From positions 1 through 26,312 of IMG/VR virus record IMGVR_UViG_3300033153_011138: a stretch of DNA of 26,312 bases; one strand, given 5' to 3'. Positions 4,011-22,533 of this stretch are shown here, in pieces (the first letter of the stretch is position 1; every line of letters starts with the position of its first letter). The stretch comes from a virus. A program made the position numbers and the translations under genes. Under the pieces are notes generated by a model that was not told the DNA's origin, did no database searches, and saw only the letters and a list, made by a program, of their open reading frames with translations.

Positions 4011-4257
4011 AATGGGAGTACAGCACAGAACAATTTTTCAATATCTTGGAATATCAAGAGCGACCTGGACAAAAATTATAAATGGGAAAAGGGATTTGTA
4101 TGCACAAGAAATAATTAAGTTGGAATATTTAGGTGTTAGACCGGAATGGCTTTTAGGTTTTTCTGATAAAGCATTTGTTACTGTAAAGATTTGGGACTAT
4201 GCACACAGAAGGTTAGAAAAATACAATAGAAAGGTAAAGAGAAATGAAAAAAAATGA
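3967..4257 (+). CDS. XRE/Cro-type helix-turn-helix protein
   Basis: A 96-aa protein with an HTH in its first half. TIFQYLGIS (about residues 23-31) fits helices 2 and the turn, and RATWTKIINGKR (32-43) fits the recognition helix. LEYLGVRPEWLLG (52-64) then resembles the typical end of an XRE domain, 'LGVSPDWLL'. The C-terminal third is basic (RRLEKYNRKVKRNEKK) and may add DNA contacts. It is probably a phage transcription regulator. It starts 44 nt inside the peptidase gene, so the two should be co-expressed. No operator was identified. Confidence 0.65.
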   Translation: MTPLTNQRLKTIPSRMGVQHRTIFQYLGISRATWTKIINGKRDLYAQEIIKLEYLGVRPEWLLGFSDKAFVTVKIWDYAHRRLEKYNRKVKRNEKK

Positions 4258-4702
4258 CTTTGTTAAAAGAATCCAAAAGTTTACGCCCTGTAGCAGCGGT
4301 GAAGATTGGATTGTTGGTAGTTGCGGCCAAAACACATATAATTTGTACCGTATTTGTAATCGTGGAGATTGGTTGTTATGGCTAGCTGTAAGACTTGAAA
4401 TTGATAGAAAAAAAATAGTAGAAGCTGCTTGTGATTGTGCTGAACAAACGATGAAATATGTAAATGATCCTCAAAAGCGCCCACAAAACGCTATCCGTGT
4501 TGCCAGGCTTTGGTTGCTAGACAAAGCTACCTTGGAGGAAGTAAAAGTTGCTGCTGCTGCTGCTGCTGCTGCTTATGCTGCTGGTGCTGGTGCAAGAAAA
4601 AAAAGTCTACTAAAAAGTGCGCAGATAGTTAGAAAAGTTATACCGTATAAAATATTCAAGGAGGCTCTTGAAAATGAAAAGATTAACTACAAAACAGCTT
4701 AA
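4244..4702 (+). CDS. Alanine-rich Imm5-like helical protein
   Basis: A 152-aa protein. GDWLLWLAVRLEIDRKK (about residues 41-57), then AACDCAEQTMKYV, RPQNAIRVARLWL and an alanine-rich run, then a final SAQIVRKVIP, follow a pattern I know from many phage and bacterial proteins labelled putative immunity protein (Imm5-like). That label is from family resemblance only; no toxin gene is nearby. Residues 103-110 are eight Ala encoded by eight consecutive GCT codons. The protein is probably an all-helical repeat scaffold. It starts within the end of the HTH gene. Confidence 0.6.
   Translation: MKKNDFVKRIQKFTPCSSGEDWIVGSCGQNTYNLYRICNRGDWLLWLAVRLEIDRKKIVEAACDCAEQTMKYVNDPQKRPQNAIRVARLWLLDKATLEEVKVAAAAAAAAYAAGAGARKKSLLKSAQIVRKVIPYKIFKEALENEKINYKTA
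4550..4573 (+). repeat. (GCT)8 trinucleotide tract inside a gene
   Basis: Eight perfect GCT units encode an alanine run in the Imm5-like protein. Further GCT and GGT codons follow to about 4591. Perfect triplet tracts can change length by replication slippage in frame, so the number of alanines may vary between related phages. Confidence 0.85.
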
Positions 4703-5214: not shown

Positions 5215-5453
5215 TGTTTTATAAAACTGTTGAAAAAACTATAAAAGCCACAATGGCTAAATCTGAAGCAGAAGCAGAAGCAGAATTAAAATTTTTAAAA
5301 ACTCTAGAACTGCGCCCCTTGTGTCCTGTGTGGCGTGATCGCTGCAAGATGGATAAATGTGTTTGTTATCAATTAGGGTTTAACACTGAGATATATGAGG
5401 ACACGTGGACACCCTATTGTAAAAAGTATAGAAAGGAAATAACTCATGTCTGA
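5214..5453 (+). CDS. Cysteine-rich small protein
   Basis: A 79-aa protein starts at ATG 5214, overlapping the previous TGA, with AGGAGGTGG upstream. A helical N-terminus includes a Glu-Ala run (SEAEAEAELKFL). The C-terminal half has six cysteines: LCPVW, RCKMDKCVC, and YC near the end. The C-terminal part could be a small zinc-binding or disulfide domain. It overlaps the following Lar-like gene by 8 nt. Confidence 0.55.
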   Translation: MFYKTVEKTIKATMAKSEAEAEAELKFLKTLELRPLCPVWRDRCKMDKCVCYQLGFNTEIYEDTWTPYCKKYRKEITHV

Positions 5454-5943
5454 AATTAATCCTTGTCCGATATGTAAGGGGGAAGTTAACGCTGTAAGTT
5501 GGATGGTTGATATAAGTATGTATTGCGATGTGTGTGATATGCATTTTTATTTTGGAGCCTCTTTTACCTCTGTGGAAAAGGTTACGAAGAAATGGAACAA
5601 ATTGGTTCCTGCTCGTGAATCAGTTACATGGAAAAAAGACTTTGCTGAATATAAAAAAATGGCTGAAGCTGCGAGAATTGAATTGTTAGCAGATGGAAAA
5701 TTTATGGACATTCTGTCACAGGTACTAGATTCAAGATGTGATGTTGTTGCATCCCTTAATAAATCTTTTAACGTTTTTTGGTCTACAGAGGATGGTTGGA
5801 AAAATAAAAAAAGAAGACGCAATAAGGGTATTGATTGGAGAAGTACGATAAGGAAAACCATATACACTTCACGTGTTTTTATTCCTTGGGATCAACAAAA
5901 AAATAATTCTAACAATAACGAAGATCATGGATTGGTGATGTAA
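5446..5943 (+). CDS. Lar-like zinc-ribbon protein
   Basis: A 165-aa protein whose first 55 residues match the Lar-type zinc-ribbon layout: C7-x2-C10 (PCPICKGE), C27-x2-C30 (YCDVCD) and a closing VEKVTKKWNK, comparable to 'EAIxxWN' in that family. Lar of the Rac prophage alleviates type I restriction, but most phage relatives are uncharacterised. The extra C-terminal 110 residues are unusual for the family and basic (KNKKRRRNKG). A nucleic-acid role next to the helicase is possible. It ends one base into the helicase start codon (TAATG). Confidence 0.6.
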   Translation: MSEINPCPICKGEVNAVSWMVDISMYCDVCDMHFYFGASFTSVEKVTKKWNKLVPARESVTWKKDFAEYKKMAEAARIELLADGKFMDILSQVLDSRCDVVASLNKSFNVFWSTEDGWKNKKRRRNKGIDWRSTIRKTIYTSRVFIPWDQQKNNSNNNEDHGLVM

Positions 5944-12561: not shown

Positions 12562-13009
12562 AATTAAAGTTGATCATTATTATTCTAAATTTGCAGGACA
12601 AACAAAAGGAAAGTTGGTTGGTGTAGAGCTTGTTTCAAGCACTGAATTGTCAGAAGAATCTAAGATGTATCATTCTTCGTATTATTGCAATTCAACGTTA
12701 AAGCATAAGCAGCCTTACCACAACACAATACCAAATGGAACTCTTATTCTTGCAACTTTTATTGGTGAAGACCATGTGCCTTTTTCAACATTAACCCCTT
12801 TGAGAGCTGCTACTTGGACTGCTATGAAAAATAATCTAGGTGCTGAATACTCCTTTGAAGTTAAAAGGAAAAGTGCCCACAAAGACACTTTGCAAGACCC
12901 TGAAGTTTGGAATGGGCCGGTACTTTCTGGGAAAGTCCCAGACCCCGAAAAAGGTGAAGTTCCAGGAACTCCTATTAATGCAGGCCAATACTCTTCACAT
13001 GACCAGTAA
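12548..13009 (+). CDS. Last + strand protein, unknown function
   Basis: A 153-aa protein; ATG 12548 overlaps the previous gene by 14 nt and has GAGGGG upstream. It is beta-rich (IKIKVDHYY; GKLVGVELVSS; GTLILATFIGE), then helical (LTPLRAATWTAMKNNLG), with a Pro-Gly-rich tail (GKVPDPEKGEVPGTP). No family is recognised. It could be the small DNA-binding partner of the recombination block, given its position. The last 35 nt overlap the opposite-strand terminase gene, so both reading frames are under constraint there. Confidence 0.55.
   Translation: MKPIKIKVDHYYSKFAGQTKGKLVGVELVSSTELSEESKMYHSSYYCNSTLKHKQPYHNTIPNGTLILATFIGEDHVPFSTLTPLRAATWTAMKNNLGAEYSFEVKRKSAHKDTLQDPEVWNGPVLSGKVPDPEKGEVPGTPINAGQYSSHDQ
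12926..12942 (+). repeat. 7-bp hairpin near the convergent junction
   Basis: TCTGGGA and TCCCAGA pair perfectly around an AAG loop. The hairpin lies in the last + strand gene, just past the terminase stop in the leftward direction. It has no T-tract on the exit side in either direction, so termination there would have to be factor-dependent. Confidence 0.4.
12958..12970 (+). repeat. Short inverted repeat beside the terminase stop
   Basis: AGTTCC and GGAACT flank a single A, five bases outside the terminase stop codon. It is one of three inverted repeats within 165 bp at the point where the two gene arms converge. It may be no more than a coincidental palindrome. Confidence 0.3.
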
Positions 13010-14636
13010 ATTTGTCTAAGTGAGATTTTGCTTTTGCCATCAAACCACCACCATTTCTTTTCTTGGGGGCCTGTCTGACAGGTTCCCAAGGTTTATTAGC
13101 AACAAATGCTCTGTACATTCTAGCACAATCACAAGGATCTTTGAATGTTTCAGATTCAACTTCTTTTCCATCTTCCCAGTAATGCCTTTCGAATGCTCTT
13201 ATTGAATTTAAACAATGTGGCATAATAAACATATCAGGTTCATTAAATTTTGAAACAGGTAATTCTATATTGTACTTAAATGACTTTCTTATGTTGTCTC
13301 TCTGGACTTGAATCTTTTCCAAAGGAGGATAGTTAAAAATAATTCCATGTCTTTGATACTCCATTACAATCCCATCTGATTTTTTGGAATAATCAGAAGT
13401 GTGATTTTTTGCAAATTGAGGATCTATAATTCTACCAACTACATTCAATCCAAATTCTTGTCCATCTAAAAGCTTAATTATGCTGGAAACATCTTCTGGA
13501 CCAAGTTTGCATACCAATCTATTTCTTAATTCGTCATAATTACCACGTAGGGAAGCGTATGTTGGCCATTCGTTATATAAGACATGCTTTGATATGCCTA
13601 AATCATTTGGAGGCGTTATAGCCCACCATTGGATGAATGGGTAATATTTATCATGAGGGTCCATCACAGTATAACAATTCCACAACTTTGTACTTGGAGC
13701 ATTTAAATCAAAATCTCTTACATGAACTAATTTATCAAAATTCGGATAAAGCTTACCAGACTTTCCAAGACTTTTACCATAAACACGAGCTTCCACTTCA
13801 TCCAGGGGAACCAAGGATATATAATCCTTAATTGCTTCTGGAGTCATCAAACCCCTTTTAGTTCCCTTGGAATTTAATTTTCCAGTCTTGATACAATTGT
13901 CATGAAGTGTAGCTGTAACAGTGATTACGGTAGCACCCTTTTCTTGGAAATCTTTTAACACATCTATCATTGGTCCTGCATTAAGAGGGGTCTGTGTAAA
14001 TAATAAAACTCCACCATGCATATGTCTAGAAGTAAAAGCTCCTACTAATTGTGGTTTTGGTGGTTCATCTATCCAGTGAAAGGATATTAGTGGACCCTCG
14101 AATTCATCTGGATCTTGGTTAAAAGTCAACACATCTCCATCCCATCCAGTATCAGTTTCGTATATTCTATCGTAACCTTTTCCACCTTTCATACAATTGT
14201 ATCTAGATGTAGGCCACCACTTACTTATTTCTGTTTTGATAGGTCCAGAATTATCTGTGTTTTGAGCAGTACCAACAATGCGAAATCTTTTTACAGGTTC
14301 ACCAATTTTAACCAGTTCACCATTCTCATCATATTCATTTGCAGTGAATGGCCATTTTTTGTAAACAGGATAATCAAAATATTCTGGATCATTATCCCAA
14401 ACAATATTCCTGGCAATCACAGCAGCTATTGCAGTTTTCCCTAATTTATTAGCACACTGCAAATTTATAATTAAAGTTTTCCCTGGCTTATTAAACTCAC
14501 CAATTTTTATTATAGCATCTTCCAATGCTCCAGTTGGTACAAATGGGGTTACTTCTGATTCTTTCACACCTTCATTAACATCTGCATGGAATTGTGCTAA
14601 TAATTCAGATATCTTATTCTTCGGTTGCTTCAACAT
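12975..14636 (-). CDS. terL: Terminase large subunit
   Basis: A 553-aa protein with both terminase domains. The ATPase has Walker A ANKLGKT (62-68), close to the 'NxxGKT' of phage terminases, and Walker B ISFHWIDE (184-191) followed by PP, with TQTP (about 214-217) as the coupling motif. The nuclease domain has Asp326 in VMDPHDK, Asp405 in RIIDPQ and Asp503 in DCARMY. It cuts concatemers and drives DNA into the prohead through the portal. ATG 14636 is chosen: GGGGAGG lies nine bases upstream, and the in-frame TTG at 14654 would overlap it. It overlaps the TerS gene by 23 nt. Confidence 0.92.
   Translation of the reverse strand: MLKQPKNKISELLAQFHADVNEGVKESEVTPFVPTGALEDAIIKIGEFNKPGKTLIINLQCANKLGKTAIAAVIARNIVWDNDPEYFDYPVYKKWPFTANEYDENGELVKIGEPVKRFRIVGTAQNTDNSGPIKTEISKWWPTSRYNCMKGGKGYDRIYETDTGWDGDVLTFNQDPDEFEGPLISFHWIDEPPKPQLVGAFTSRHMHGGVLLFTQTPLNAGPMIDVLKDFQEKGATVITVTATLHDNCIKTGKLNSKGTKRGLMTPEAIKDYISLVPLDEVEARVYGKSLGKSGKLYPNFDKLVHVRDFDLNAPSTKLWNCYTVMDPHDKYYPFIQWWAITPPNDLGISKHVLYNEWPTYASLRGNYDELRNRLVCKLGPEDVSSIIKLLDGQEFGLNVVGRIIDPQFAKNHTSDYSKKSDGIVMEYQRHGIIFNYPPLEKIQVQRDNIRKSFKYNIELPVSKFNEPDMFIMPHCLNSIRAFERHYWEDGKEVESETFKDPCDCARMYRAFVANKPWEPVRQAPKKRNGGGLMAKAKSHLDKFTGHVKSIGLH
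13062..13096 (+). terminator. Candidate terminator of the + strand arm
   Basis: Bases 13062-13075 pair with 13077-13090 in a near-continuous stem: CTTGGG with CCCAAG, two G-U pairs, then CCTGTC with GACAGG. The two wobble pairs exist only in + strand RNA; in - strand RNA they become C-A mismatches, so the fold favours rightward transcripts. GTTTATT follows, a poor but present T-rich exit. It lies about 50 bases past the last + strand stop and inside the terminase gene. Confidence 0.45.
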
Positions 14637-15246
14637 AATCAATAGCCTCCCCAATTGCCAAATTAAATTCTGCCAACGCTAAATCTTTTTGATTTGCAGG
14701 AATATACTTGCTTATAATGTAAATTGTTTGTTGGGTAATTTTTTTAAGGGTAATGTTCACATTAACATCTTGAGTGATGGCTGCTAAGTTTGGTGCAAAT
14801 TTATCCATTAACTTTGCAAGCATGGTGACACTATTTTTTTCGAGTTGAGCAGAAGGCATTTCTATTTCATGGGTATTGCCGCATTCTGGGTTATCGCATA
14901 CTATAGCATGCATCCTCTTACATTTAGGGCATTTAACTTGCCAAACATTTACAACTGGATTTCTCATTGCAATCTTGTAAGCATTGTTAAACACTGAGAC
15001 GTGAAATGTAGATACACCGCTTTTAACTAAACCAGGAGTAGCTTTTTCAATATCTGCATTAACACAGGCTATAACTTTTTTAAAATCAGTGTGGCTTTTT
15101 GGAAGGACTTTGTTCCAGTTTGCGTAGTCTCCAGTAGTTGCTTCCAACTCTTGTTTATTGCCAAAATTTTTTACATTCACATCTCTAGCTTTTTGGGCAT
15201 TAGTCCTTGGCCCCTTCTTGTACTGCTTTGATACTTTGTGCTGCAC
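14614..15246 (-). CDS. Probable terminase small subunit with zinc ribbon
   Basis: A 210-aa protein directly upstream of and overlapping the large subunit. It starts at GTG 15246, five bases after AGAAGG. The N-terminus is basic (QHKVSKQYKKGPRTNAQKAR) and could bind DNA. A zinc-ribbon-like insert occupies the middle: C106-x2-C109 (KCPKCK) and C117-x4-C122 (CDNPEC). The C-terminal part is helical and fits oligomerisation. TerS identity rests on position, size and the basic N-terminus, not on sequence similarity I can name. A zinc ribbon is not a usual TerS feature. Confidence 0.6.
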   Translation of the reverse strand: MQHKVSKQYKKGPRTNAQKARDVNVKNFGNKQELEATTGDYANWNKVLPKSHTDFKKVIACVNADIEKATPGLVKSGVSTFHVSVFNNAYKIAMRNPVVNVWQVKCPKCKRMHAIVCDNPECGNTHEIEMPSAQLEKNSVTMLAKLMDKFAPNLAAITQDVNVNITLKKITQQTIYIISKYIPANQKDLALAEFNLAIGEAIDYVEATEE

Positions 15247-15298: not shown

Positions 15299-15496
15299 TT
15301 AACGAAACGAACTATATCTAAACGAATTGCTGTGATAACTTTTGTGGTAAGTTGCAGGCTTTGCAAGTGAACCATTTGTTACAGGTCCGTACCCACACAC
15401 ACCATCGCCAAGCGCATATTCACCTAGTGGTTTGTATGACAACGCAAAAACCAATACAGCTACAGCAAATATAATTGCACATATTTTCTTAAACAT
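15299..15496 (-). CDS. Small membrane or exported protein in holin position
   Basis: A 65-aa protein starting at ATG 15496, six bases after GAGGAGG. One hydrophobic segment (about residues 4-22, KICAIIFAVAVLVFALS) follows a Lys-Lys start and could be a signal anchor or cleavable signal peptide. The remainder is short, Gly/Tyr/Ser-rich and ends SFRYSSFR. It lies between the fibre-like gene and TerS, where T7 encodes its holin, so a lysis role is possible by synteny only. Downstream, 15247-15298 is AT-rich and has no gene. Confidence 0.55.
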   Translation of the reverse strand: MFKKICAIIFAVAVLVFALSYKPLGEYALGDGVCGYGPVTNGSLAKPATYHKSYHSNSFRYSSFR

Positions 15497-15510
15497 AATC
15501 CCCTCCTCTA

Positions 15511-16791
15511 TTAATGTACCACACAAACTAAATCAGGATCTCCGCCTGTGCGGTAGAAGTCACCAACTGCCAAACCGCCGCCTGCTGCTGCAGCATTATT
15601 TGCATGAGCTGGTAGTCCTATAACAGCCATTGCGCCATTTACTTTTGTATCACCATTGATATACAACTTTTCGCTAGTTTGAGAAACACCATCACCAATG
15701 GCAACATTACCAGCACTAGACATATTCATCTTTATGCCGGTACTCAAGTTGTACCAAGTGAATTGGCCAGCATTCCAAACACCTACCGACTGATCCCAAG
15801 TATCTACATCAGCATTCCTACCAGAGCCAATATCTTTTATCCTAAATCCATATTTATTACTTGAGTTATGTTTAACCATTAAGTTTGCTACTTGGTCGGT
15901 AATTCCGCCAACCCCTACAGGGTTTGCAAAATATGTGTTATCACCATACATAATTGCGCTTATCGTTGGCGAGCTACCCGGCACTGTATCAGTAGTGTAA
16001 AAGTTAAACGCCGAACCTCTTGTTGAGTCCGTGAACCCTTGTGTTGCAACGGCTATGAATTGTGCACTAACATTATAACTACTATCACCATATCCATAAA
16101 ATGCAAATTGTCCTAATGGGTCTGAGCTATTGATATTAGTCGGGCTTGATAATGAACCTCTTGATTTATACATTGCAGCTAAACTCGAAATTGCGTTATT
16201 AGAAGGAGCGTATAACTTAAACCCCTTTGCAGCATTGTAACAAAGAAATTCACCATTTCCAGGACTAATACCATTTGCATCAACATGCATACACTCAGTC
16301 ATACCGAGCGCACCTGTTGGTGTTAGATACATTTGATAATTACACCCTTGTGTAGAGTCTGTCCAATCTTCAGTCGGTACAACAGCTATTTCGGAACCCA
16401 ATCCATACGCAGAACCATTCCAGCCCCAAGATCTATAATTCCAGAAGTCATCAGCAGAAGTCCCAAGCGCACCATAAGCCTGTATTGGTAATGGGTTGTC
16501 ATACGTCCCCCTGGATCTATAAAAATTCATATGGTTTACGTCGTCTGTTTTTTCGGAATTTCCATACATACTAAAATTGACACTATTAGGATTGCTAGGT
16601 GCTCTAATAGTAAAAGTGTCTTGCCCTATGGTAAGCTTGCTTGCGTAAGCTGACAGAATAGAGTCGTAAGAATCAGCCCAATTCCTAACTCCATTTGGTG
16701 CATCTCCTCTTTCTGGAATGTACCATCCATTAATTTGTTTTTCTCCAATTGCCAATGTTACGATTAAAAATAATAGTAGAAAACTTTTCAT
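15511..16791 (-). CDS. Fibre-like protein with signal peptide
   Basis: A 426-aa protein with three fibre hallmarks: two copies of a roughly 80-residue repeat beginning YRSRG or YKSRG (about 90-171 and 208-283, each with a TDST segment), then AGNVAIGDG and EKLYINGDTKVNG (about 360-386), and a terminal AAAAGGGLAVGDFYRTG as in many phage fibre tips. Residues 1-16 (MKSFLLLFLIVTLAIG) look like a cleavable signal peptide with an A-x-G site, unusual for a virion protein. It could be a receptor-binding fibre, or a fibre-derived protein exported to the periplasm or surface. It starts at an ATGA overlap with the receiver gene, behind AAAGGAG. Confidence 0.75.
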   Translation of the reverse strand: MKSFLLLFLIVTLAIGEKQINGWYIPERGDAPNGVRNWADSYDSILSAYASKLTIGQDTFTIRAPSNPNSVNFSMYGNSEKTDDVNHMNFYRSRGTYDNPLPIQAYGALGTSADDFWNYRSWGWNGSAYGLGSEIAVVPTEDWTDSTQGCNYQMYLTPTGALGMTECMHVDANGISPGNGEFLCYNAAKGFKLYAPSNNAISSLAAMYKSRGSLSSPTNINSSDPLGQFAFYGYGDSSYNVSAQFIAVATQGFTDSTRGSAFNFYTTDTVPGSSPTISAIMYGDNTYFANPVGVGGITDQVANLMVKHNSSNKYGFRIKDIGSGRNADVDTWDQSVGVWNAGQFTWYNLSTGIKMNMSSAGNVAIGDGVSQTSEKLYINGDTKVNGAMAVIGLPAHANNAAAAGGGLAVGDFYRTGGDPDLVCVVH

Positions 16792-17402
16792 ACATACTCC
16801 TTTAACTTTTCAATTTCTATTGATTTATTAAAATAAGACCCTGTATACTCTTCTGGCTTGTCAGATGCACTGTAAAGATGGAACGGTATATCAATAGATT
16901 GATCCTTGCAAAAGTTGCACAGATCTATTCCTAATGGCTTACGATTATGCATAAGATCGCTAAATATTATATCAGGATTAGAATACAACAGCTCATACTT
17001 TGCATTAACAAAACTTTTAGCAACTCTGAAAGACAAATCCTCGTCGCATCTAAGTAATTTTCTTTTAATAAGATCAATACTGCTATCTTCATCATCATAT
17101 ATCAACACTGTTCTTTTTTTTCTTCTAGCAACTTTAAAATGGGTAACAATGTCATTTTGATAATCTTCAGCTTTTTGAATATGATTATCCATTTTTGAAC
17201 TCAAATGTTTTAGACTGTTTCCAAGTATTTCGAAATCTTTACTATTCCCAACTTCCCATAATTTAAACTCTGCCTTTGACAACATAGTATCATGCTTTTT
17301 ACAAGTCTTTTCGGACATTGTTGTTTTAAGCCACCACACAGCCACAAGACAAAATAAAGTTTTGGTAACTTCTGATGCTGTAATATCTGTAAACCATTCC
17401 AT
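16788..17402 (-). CDS. Membrane-anchored response-regulator receiver protein
   Basis: A 204-aa protein with three parts. A transmembrane helix (about 12-26, VTKTLFCLVAVWWL) is followed by a charged, probably coiled-coil linker (35-95) ending RRKKR. The C-terminal REC domain (97-204) has VLIYDDED (acidic pocket Asp103-Asp104), IIFSDLM with phosphoacceptor Asp149, PFHLYSAS with Ser178 at the Thr/Ser switch site, and FNKS with Lys193. All CheY key positions are filled, though Lys is followed by Ser instead of Pro and the last stretch is short. The basic residues after the helix place REC in the cytoplasm. No kinase or output domain is present. It is coupled to the fibre-like gene by ATGA. Confidence 0.75.
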   Translation of the reverse strand: MEWFTDITASEVTKTLFCLVAVWWLKTTMSEKTCKKHDTMLSKAEFKLWEVGNSKDFEILGNSLKHLSSKMDNHIQKAEDYQNDIVTHFKVARRKKRTVLIYDDEDSSIDLIKRKLLRCDEDLSFRVAKSFVNAKYELLYSNPDIIFSDLMHNRKPLGIDLCNFCKDQSIDIPFHLYSASDKPEEYTGSYFNKSIEIEKLKEYV

Positions 17403-17483: not shown

Positions 17484-18059
17484 TTATTGTAATTTTACAG
17501 GTTTAGCAGTTCTTTGGTCGAATTGAAATATTAATTTGAGTGGTGCACCATCTTTGTTGAGTCCGCCAAGACTTTTCGCCCAAGGTCTAATTAGCACATC
17601 CCATTCAGGAGAGAATTGCCTTCGTTGAATTGCGTAACCAATTATTTGTGATGTATCGGATGCTTGATTCCATGATCTAGTAAGCGTACCACTTGAATTA
17701 ATACTACCAGCAGTGCCAACTCCAAAACTATCAGCACACATAGTGTCTACTATAAACCTGTCCTCTTTTGCAAAAATAGTATCTCTTTTTCCAGCACTGT
17801 CTTTTGAAAATGTCCCAGTCTGGAAACCCCATTCGAAATTTACGCTATCATTTTTAAACCCAGCTTCAGCAGTGTCATTGCATTTAACTGTAATTTTAAG
17901 ATTCTCATATCTAGACATTGGGAGGAATCCACCATAATAAATTGTAGCAGAATCCAGCGTATCAGTTATAATACTGGTGTCACCATATCCATTCCAATTC
18001 AAATCTATTGAATAGCTCATTGAGATTAACATGGCGAAGATTAAAAATATTTTATTCAC
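17484..18059 (-). CDS. Exported beta-rich protein, unknown function
   Basis: A 191-aa protein. GTG 18059 is chosen because AAAGGTGG then lies about six bases upstream; an in-frame GTG at 18068 is inside that site. Residues 1-17 (MNKIFLIFAMLISMSYS) look like a cleavable signal peptide. The mature part is rich in Asp, Ser and Thr and probably beta-structured (YGDTSIITDTLDSATIYYGG; LKITVKCND). Four further cysteine or tryptophan-bearing segments show no catalytic pattern. Location among virion genes suggests a structural or host-envelope role. It overlaps the preceding gene by 8 nt. Confidence 0.6.
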   Translation of the reverse strand: MNKIFLIFAMLISMSYSIDLNWNGYGDTSIITDTLDSATIYYGGFLPMSRYENLKITVKCNDTAEAGFKNDSVNFEWGFQTGTFSKDSAGKRDTIFAKEDRFIVDTMCADSFGVGTAGSINSSGTLTRSWNQASDTSQIIGYAIQRRQFSPEWDVLIRPWAKSLGGLNKDGAPLKLIFQFDQRTAKPVKLQ

Positions 18060-18258
18060 TTTTACCACCTTTAAAAAGTTTAAAAAATCGTTTTCCAGTA
18101 TTTATAAAAGGCTCTACAACAAGATCCATAAAAAGATCATCAATAGGCCACTTAGAAGCTTTGCAGCAAAAATTAAATATTAAGTAAAAAAGGTAAGCTG
18201 CAATAATAATCCAATTCCCCATAAAAACATTAATTATCAAATCGTTTGTATCTGGCAT
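18052..18258 (-). CDS. Small single-pass membrane protein
   Basis: A 68-aa protein starting at ATG 18258 in a TAATG overlap, with a GGGGGG ribosome binding site. One transmembrane helix (about 14-33, GNWIIIAAYLFYLIFNFCC) is followed by a basic amphipathic tail (NTGKRFFKLFKGGK). It is small enough for a holin or pinholin, but no family is recognised. It is the first gene of a run of six membrane or exported products. Confidence 0.55.
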   Translation of the reverse strand: MPDTNDLIINVFMGNWIIIAAYLFYLIFNFCCKASKWPIDDLFMDLVVEPFINTGKRFFKLFKGGKSE

Positions 18259-21659: not shown

Positions 21660-22000
21660 TAGTTGACCCCCATCAGTTGAGGTTGAGGAGGTGCATTTGG
21701 AATTCCTCCAGGCGGTTTGTATTTGGATTGAGAATAATTCCTAACAAAACCTCTATTAAAACTTTTAGTTCTTGCTCTTTTTTGAGCACCCATCCTTTGT
21801 TCTGCTAATTGCTCCAACTGACTAAGATTGGCACTTCTGTCTTGTTGCTGCATTTGATCTTCAAAACGCTTATGCCCAAGTTTGCGAAAAGCTCGAGTTT
21901 TTTCCTCTTGCTCCTTGTTTGCTTGACTAGCAGATACACCTTTATAAATACCTGTACCTATTGAAGTGACACCCATTATAATCGCAGCCGCAATACCCAT
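21659..22000 (-). CDS. Small internal virion-like protein
   Basis: A 113-aa protein starting at a TAATG overlap after GGGGAT. The N-terminal MGIAAAIIMGVTSIGTGIYKG is a Gly/Ala hydrophobic helix, followed by a long charged and Gln-rich helix (about 28-80) and a Pro-rich tail (KPPGGIPNAPPQPQ). T7-like small internal proteins (gp14 class) show a similar N-terminal amphipathic helix followed by coiled coil, but that is only a resemblance in layout. Confidence 0.5.
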   Translation of the reverse strand: MGIAAAIIMGVTSIGTGIYKGVSASQANKEQEEKTRAFRKLGHKRFEDQMQQQDRSANLSQLEQLAEQRMGAQKRARTKSFNRGFVRNYSQSKYKPPGGIPNAPPQPQLMGVN

Positions 22001-22533
22001 TATATCCCCACGTTTTCCACAGCTTGTTTAATATCAGTTTTAACTTTTAAAAATTTTGTAATTCTTTCTATTTCACCTTTTGGATCTCTCATCATATCAT
22101 TGTAATCCACATCAATATAAGGTATTTTGTTTTCATCCAAGTATCTTTTAGTATACTCTCTACCAACATCAAATAACTCATCACATACTTTTCTAGTTGC
22201 TGGTACACCACATTCTGGGGAATGAGCTAATAATTTTTGATAGCTCTTTGAAGCTTCTCCTCTGTACCTACAACACCTAATAGCTCTAGATATTAACTTG
22301 GGATTAGTTCTTGTCAATTGCTGCACAAACAGCTTCACACCTTTTCCTTCGTATCTATTATCTTGTATACCGTCAATAGTAGCTGAAACAGGAAGTTCCC
22401 AATACCCTTTTTTATTATACTCTTCAACATTGTATTTATCAAATTTTTCACCAGTTATACCAATTCCCAATTTTTCCAAAGTTTGCATAACTAATGAAGT
22501 TCCACTTCTTGCTGTTCCAGTTACAACTATCAT
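22000..22533 (-). CDS. Sulfotransferase-like P-loop protein
   Basis: A 177-aa protein. VTGTARSGTSLVMQTLEKLG (residues 4-23) matches the 5'-phosphosulfate-binding loop of sulfotransferases ('GxPRSGTSLLxxxL'). IRCCRYRGEASKSY (about 85-98) could supply the Arg and Ser that hold the 3'-phosphate, and IDVDYNDMMRDPKGEIERITKFL fits the family's 'YEDLxxDP...L..FL' C-terminal element. The family transfers sulfate from PAPS to sugars, tyrosine or small molecules. It is shorter than most members. It sits between virion genes, TAATG-coupled downstream and with AAGGAA upstream of ATG 22533. The target could be host surface glycan or a virion protein; unknown. Confidence 0.72.
   Translation of the reverse strand: MIVVTGTARSGTSLVMQTLEKLGIGITGEKFDKYNVEEYNKKGYWELPVSATIDGIQDNRYEGKGVKLFVQQLTRTNPKLISRAIRCCRYRGEASKSYQKLLAHSPECGVPATRKVCDELFDVGREYTKRYLDENKIPYIDVDYNDMMRDPKGEIERITKFLKVKTDIKQAVENVGI

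Follow-up and report, generated by a model that had tools for sequence, protein, structure and literature searches.

A phage gene joining a likely membrane anchor to a divergent CheY-like receiver, and similar gene pairs, mostly among lysis genes, in other phages

The virus record analysed here (26,312 bases, the window) carries on its minus strand an uninterrupted open reading frame that begins with ATG and runs for 204 codons (16788..17402), encoding a putative membrane segment, a coiled coil and a CheY-like receiver domain in one 204-aa chain. In seven other phage genomes (V22, R9Y1-3, R8W and H4/4 counted as one, A5, PB15, V19 and L046), a stand-alone receiver gene lies directly after a short membrane/coiled-coil gene, the anchor, among the late genes, and in six of the seven recognised lysis genes adjoin the pair (holin, GH108 lysozyme, amidase, M15 peptidase, spanin, endolysin). 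The window gene comprises these two parts, anchor and receiver, in a single chain near the terminase genes. What is new is this setting of the receiver, that is, its pairing with an anchor, mostly among lysis genes. The architecture is well supported, and we put at about even the chance that the receiver works on the host membrane in a late lysis module, where it would adjust the timing of lysis via host phosphodonors.

Residues ~96-204 (16791..17117, minus strand) are a genuine receiver domain. A Pfam search, which the preliminary description had proposed as a check, does return Response_reg as the best family for the protein (E 0.01), but at 16.4 bits it falls short of the gathering score of 30.2 bits. 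The best NCBIfam model is PhoB (E 0.0035), and the best chain in a PDB sequence search with the receiver domain is PhoP 1mvo (E 0.0022). With an HMM of 14 receivers taken from other virus contigs, the window row excluded, residues 95-204 score 26.4 bits versus a maximum of 9.4 bits over 20,000 shuffles. The five catalytic residues D103, D104, D149, S178 and K193, correctly numbered in the preliminary description, are all kept; they align with the catalytic positions of PhoP, Spo0F and CovR-like receivers and with those of the 14 virus-contig receivers. In addition, Y190 occupies the K-3 aromatic position of 'Y-T coupling' (PMC12632262). By the definition of a receiver as five catalytic residues, DD, D, T/S and K (PMC12632262), the domain reads, from its sequence, as a receiver and not a pseudo-receiver.

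An AlphaFold2 model from a 15-row alignment (pLDDT 91.2, pTM 0.82) has an alternating beta/alpha fold on a five-stranded sheet and superposes on CheY (3chy) with Z 16.1 and an rmsd of 1.8 A over 109 residues, bearing out the overlay that had been suggested. Because the model superposes on CheY, D149 and K193 are predicted to lie close together. Foldseek against the PDB gave hundreds of matches at E <= 0.001, and among the 50 matches listed almost all are receivers. An alignment made up only of receivers biases AlphaFold2 toward the receiver fold, so the shuffle test provides the independent leg; a single-sequence AlphaFold model reached pLDDT 37 and was discarded.

The domain is a divergent receiver and not a canonical PF00072 member, with alpha4 absent; the preliminary description was right about the fold and missed both this loss and the A8 run at the anchor/receiver junction. 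Between S178 and K193 (16824..16871, minus strand), ~8 residues are missing in both the alignment and the model, the two residues lying 15 positions apart compared with 22 in CheY. The model runs from beta4 to beta5 without a helix, alpha5 is short, and the chain ends at alpha5 with residue 204. Receivers customarily use the alpha4-beta5-alpha5 face for output and dimerisation, and not all five helices of a CheY-like receiver are present here, alpha4 of this face being the one absent. Without it the usual output face is incomplete, so any phosphorylation must be read out otherwise.

Residues 9-26 (17325..17378, minus strand) form a short, marginal membrane helix with a 17-residue hydropathy of 1.3 and a rough insertion energy of about 0, versus +3 to +5 in two soluble controls; the membrane helices of the V22 and A5 anchors are as weak. 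They are followed by a charged helical arm (residues 45-93, 17124..17270, minus strand) with a heptad bias (a/d hydrophobic 0.71 versus 0.52 in shuffles, p 0.016). We judge the tethering of the receiver by a transmembrane helix and coiled coil, as given in the preliminary description, likely but borderline. The charges flanking the helix predict an N-out/C-in orientation, which would place the coil and receiver in the cytoplasm. This charge pattern is common to the window anchor and those of R8W, R9Y3, V22, A5, V19 and L046, whereas that of the adjoining spanins is unlike it. By the charge rule only, the window anchor is opposite to the Rz-like proteins of V22 and A5, and a two-component i-spanin (Rz-like, N-in, with a periplasmic coil) was rejected on that rule. 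The membrane/coil part has no match to phrog_937 (XhlA/hemolysin), and the whole protein matches only phrog_731 at E up to 0.1.

In transcription order, a 636-aa internal-virion-like protein, a 68-aa single-membrane-helix protein (18052..18258), a 194-aa protein with a signal-like start and the anchor-receiver are followed by a tail-fibre-like gene (15511..16791), a 75-aa protein, a candidate terminase small subunit (TerS, 14614..15246) and the terminase large subunit (TerL, 12975..14654), the features with coordinates all lying on the minus strand. As described previously, the anchor-receiver gene runs into the fibre-like gene, its end and the start of the latter sharing 4 bases (ATGA, 16788-16791); the fibre call comes from the sequence pattern of this gene, which has a signal-like N-terminal stretch and gave no match in a Pfam scan. 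The TerS candidate is conserved in two related contigs, L004 and L008, directly upstream of TerL, and TerL matches an annotated large terminase at 27%. The sole candidate for a lysis gene near the anchor-receiver is the 68-aa protein, holin-like by size and position; it is related to a 65-aa protein adjoining TerS in L008 (0/1000 shuffles) and found no convincing match in a PHROG search. The window is probably incomplete, as an open frame is cut at its right end and the closest relative measures 38.6 kb, and no endolysin or other lysin was recognised within this fragment. The preliminary description of a receiver with neither kinase nor output domain is correct for the protein; for its surroundings it extends to the 21 window proteins scanned in Pfam, in which no kinase was found, the contig being a fragment. 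A TerL search of GTDB genomes for the host gave no match.

Several other genes of the window are of separate interest. Signal-peptide-like starts are unusual in tailed-phage structural proteins; here they occur in fibre-/virion-like late genes of the window (15511-16791, 17484-18068 and 15299-15526) and of its relatives (L007 1604-3133 and 3412-4392; L004 570-1970). A short sulfotransferase/P-loop-like late protein (22000-22533, Pfam Sulfotransfer_3 E 6e-8) is common to three related phages (L007 6512-7057, L008 654-1190). Two early-region proteins (4244-4702 and 5446-5943) have matches to Imm-5-like (Pfam E 6e-6, just above the cut-off) and Lar restriction alleviation (weak, E 0.004, under the cut-off).

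We reached the other anchor-receiver phages through a structure search of viral proteins, which led to Alteromonas phage V22. There, gp28-gp32 encode a papain-like amidase, anchor, receiver, Rz-like spanin and small two-helix membrane protein, and in A5 the order is anchor, receiver, Rz-like spanin, membrane protein and endolysin; V22 and A5 share the block (PMC10579305) and are not independent cases. The pair is preceded by a class II holin and followed by a membrane protein, TerS and TerL in R8W and H4/4, and is followed by a GH108 lysozyme in R9Y1-3, by an M15 peptidase in PB15, where the anchor is of the XhlA-type hemolysin family, and by an Amidase_3 endolysin in L046, an IMG/VR contig. 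In V19 no recognised lysin adjoins the pair. Between the anchor and receiver genes there is either an overlap of a few bases or a gap of no more than 20. Anchor-like genes, liberally defined, make up 4% of 266 genes in five module genomes, and one directly precedes the receiver in every module genome. The receivers measure 125-153 aa, those of R9Y, R8W and L046 being 42-48% alike to that of R9Y3, and the seven genomes represent about five independent receiver groups at most, mostly from Alteromonas phages. The V19 receiver (L038 3498-3950) no longer has the acceptor Asp or the Lys and by its sequence classes as a phage pseudo-receiver. Four further viral receivers (L022, L024, L030, L049) are single-domain proteins found elsewhere, without anchor or lysis context. 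As a side observation, an unannotated lipoprotein-like frame with a lipobox-like LLSLVSC (L048 5714-6046) overlaps the Rz-like gene in another frame, which makes it a candidate for the o-spanin in the A5-type lysis module.

The window receiver scores 13.8 bits with an HMM of the module receivers versus 26.4 bits with the general-receiver HMM, so common descent of the window pair and the module pairs is not established; by these scores it appears not to be specifically related to the lysis-module/Alteromonas receivers and may have been recruited separately. The search for homologues advised in the preliminary description yielded no direct relative of the window protein in IMG/VR, INPHARED or GTDB genomes, and a scan led by the window receiver no confirmed one; a PF00072 genome profile search missed the window receiver itself, so nothing follows from its failure to list relatives. 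Several apparent matches were rejected: in two IMG/VR contigs (L001/L002) the match is an out-of-frame part of an unrelated ORF, Rhizobium phage matches (E 3) lie on the strand opposite an annotated gene and are ascribed to chance, and a match in Pseudomonas phage Komp_PAO1_1 is antisense to an annotated gene, with stops in the translated frame. Many INPHARED 'phage' records with response regulators look like bacterial contamination and were left out. IMG/VR contigs also encode hybrid kinases and full-length regulators of the OmpR/NarL type, which are of a different kind.

By TerL, the relatives of the window phage are L004/L006/L007 (50%) and L008 (48%). The closest, L004/L006/L007, is a contig of 38.6 kb whose ends overlap by 82 bases; in its comparable slot lies a 109-aa membrane-helix/coil protein without a receiver, which has weak similarity to the window anchor (p 0.014) and the opposite charge pattern. 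Upstream of this protein are a YkuD domain protein and a papain-like protein, the latter related to V22 gp28 (E 1.8e-4, two-sequence comparison). L008 has a weakly XhlA-like protein (phrog_937) near the comparable position, and no receiver was seen among the ORFs listed for the distant TerL relatives L009 and L013. In these related phages, then, the anchor slot forms part of a region of envelope/lysis type, although homology among the anchors themselves is not established. Among unrelated features of these contigs, a multi-membrane-helix protein of lycopene-cyclase-like appearance (L008 4602-5246) and a second, shorter TerL-like copy (L008 5261-6013) sit between the coiled-coil gene and TerS, and the C-terminal part (FHGTSQKFDIFD...) of a 916-aa internal virion protein (L007 8703-11453) resembles an ADP-ribosyltransferase-like domain.

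Three roles had been suggested for the receiver: titration of phosphate, sensing of host state and timing of lysis. None is proved, and the comparative context favours lysis timing, because receivers follow the same kind of anchor inside the lysis modules of other phages. In such a mechanism, the N-terminal segment would insert into the inner membrane in an N-out/C-in orientation and the coiled coil would oligomerise in the cytoplasm, keeping the receiver on that side. The phosphoryl donors for D149 would be host histidine kinases or acetyl phosphate, and the phospho-state would alter the contacts of the receiver and, through them, the assembly state of the anchor; carried to the membrane, this change would shift holin firing or lysin action, in one direction or the other. 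In most known relatives two adjacent genes encode anchor and receiver, whereas in the window the two form a single polypeptide. We give control of lysis by the receiver roughly even chances. Against it count the lack of a recognised endolysin in the window fragment, the absence of any specific closeness between the window receiver and those of the lysis modules, the loss of acceptor and Lys in V19, the existence of single-domain viral receivers elsewhere, the alpha4 loss, the opposite charges and only weak similarity of the L004 slot protein, and the origin of most examples in phages of one host genus.

The alpha4 deletion and the V19 relative without acceptor Asp and Lys would suit a phosphorylation-independent scaffold, in which the receiver fold caps a lysis or membrane protein and binds other proteins, its catalysis being vestigial; we think this unlikely, since all five catalytic residues, like the K-3 aromatic, have been retained in the window at an overall identity of ~25%, which suggests selection on catalysis. 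It is less probable still that the protein is a decoy that, at the membrane, drains phosphoryl groups from a host kinase and so dampens a late-infection envelope or stress response. A receiver without an output domain that is predicted to face the cytoplasm fits such a sink, but it would not account for the repeated occurrence of receiver and anchor gene side by side among the lysis genes of six other phages, and a late operon is poor timing for a blocker of host responses. An auxiliary metabolic gene (AMG) or PhoB-type regulator tuning host transcription, for example under phosphate limitation, has precedent in the publications on R8W, whose receiver is described as PhoB-like (PMC8228385), and V22, where it is described as a class II AMG (PMC7289586), and PhoP is the best PDB match; yet the chain ends at alpha5 in the window protein and measures 125-153 aa in the relatives, so the C-terminal DNA-binding domain is absent. 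We rejected the PhoB-type role on this ground and hold the wider proposal to be very improbable.

A further alternative concerns the gene itself. An A8 homopolymer (17114..17121, minus strand) lies exactly at the anchor/receiver junction, and the gain or loss of a single base there would leave an anchor of 99 or 102 aa, in the size range of stand-alone anchors (93-125 aa), as each of the other two frames meets a stop after a few codons. The site may be a real fusion, an indel or a slippage site. If the run hides an indel, the single frame is non-native and anchor and receiver are two overlapping genes, as the pair is overlapping or adjacent in other phages; the function would be that of the membrane-tethered lysis-timing explanation. 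We consider this quite improbable: the junction residues in the fused frame (KKRTVLIYDD) resemble the start of an ordinary receiver (KKILIVDD), a point in favour of a genuine fusion, the only in-frame starts of a separate receiver are GTG/TTG inside beta1, and A/T runs of 8 are common (9 within the window). Only a little less remote, in our estimate, is a bolder version of the lysis-timing explanation, in which anchor-receiver pairs are an unrecognised, widespread lysis-clock device and slippage at A8 here yields both a free anchor (99/102 aa) and a receiver-bearing form, a two-product timer comparable in logic to the lambda holin/antiholin pair.

Phage lysis timing is known in detail for few systems, among them holin clocks and lysis inhibition in T4 and N4. 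Were receiver-based lysis timing correct, the lysis machinery of unrelated phages would read the host's signalling state directly, and Alteromonas-phage genes published as PhoB-like or auxiliary metabolic would call for a different reading, one that cultured Alteromonas phages make testable. In the literature searched, which left most subscription journals outside its scope, a lysis role for receivers is not proposed.

Among known systems, the OmpR-family receivers PhoP (1mvo) and VicR (8fk2) are closest in sequence (E 0.0022 and 0.16) and top by Foldseek. They share the catalytic residues of the window receiver but have alpha4 and a DNA-binding output domain, where the window protein has neither and carries an N-terminal membrane anchor instead. 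XhlA/hemolysin proteins (phrog_937), of which the PB15 anchor is a strong member (E 1.8e-16), resemble the anchor as short single-membrane-helix coiled-coil proteins beside lysis genes; however, their membrane helix is C-terminal and they have no receiver, and the window N-terminus lacks a match to their profile. The cREC of jumbo phages (PMC7824862) is likewise a phage-encoded, divergent receiver outside ordinary two-component systems, but lies with NAD/ADP-ribose enzymes (PMC7824862), of which none was recognised among the 21 window proteins scanned, and Pfam at E up to 10 lists no cREC profile for the window protein. The order of anchor-receiver, TerS and TerL in the window resembles that of Foturvirus. 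Finally, the receivers of Alteromonas phages V22 (gp30), A5 (gp11), R9Y3 (_12), R8W (gp48), H4/4 (gp44) and PB15 are output-less as in the window, but they are encoded by a separate gene after the anchor gene, close to recognised lysis genes, whereas the window receiver, without alpha4 and not specifically related to them in sequence, shares one polypeptide with its anchor.
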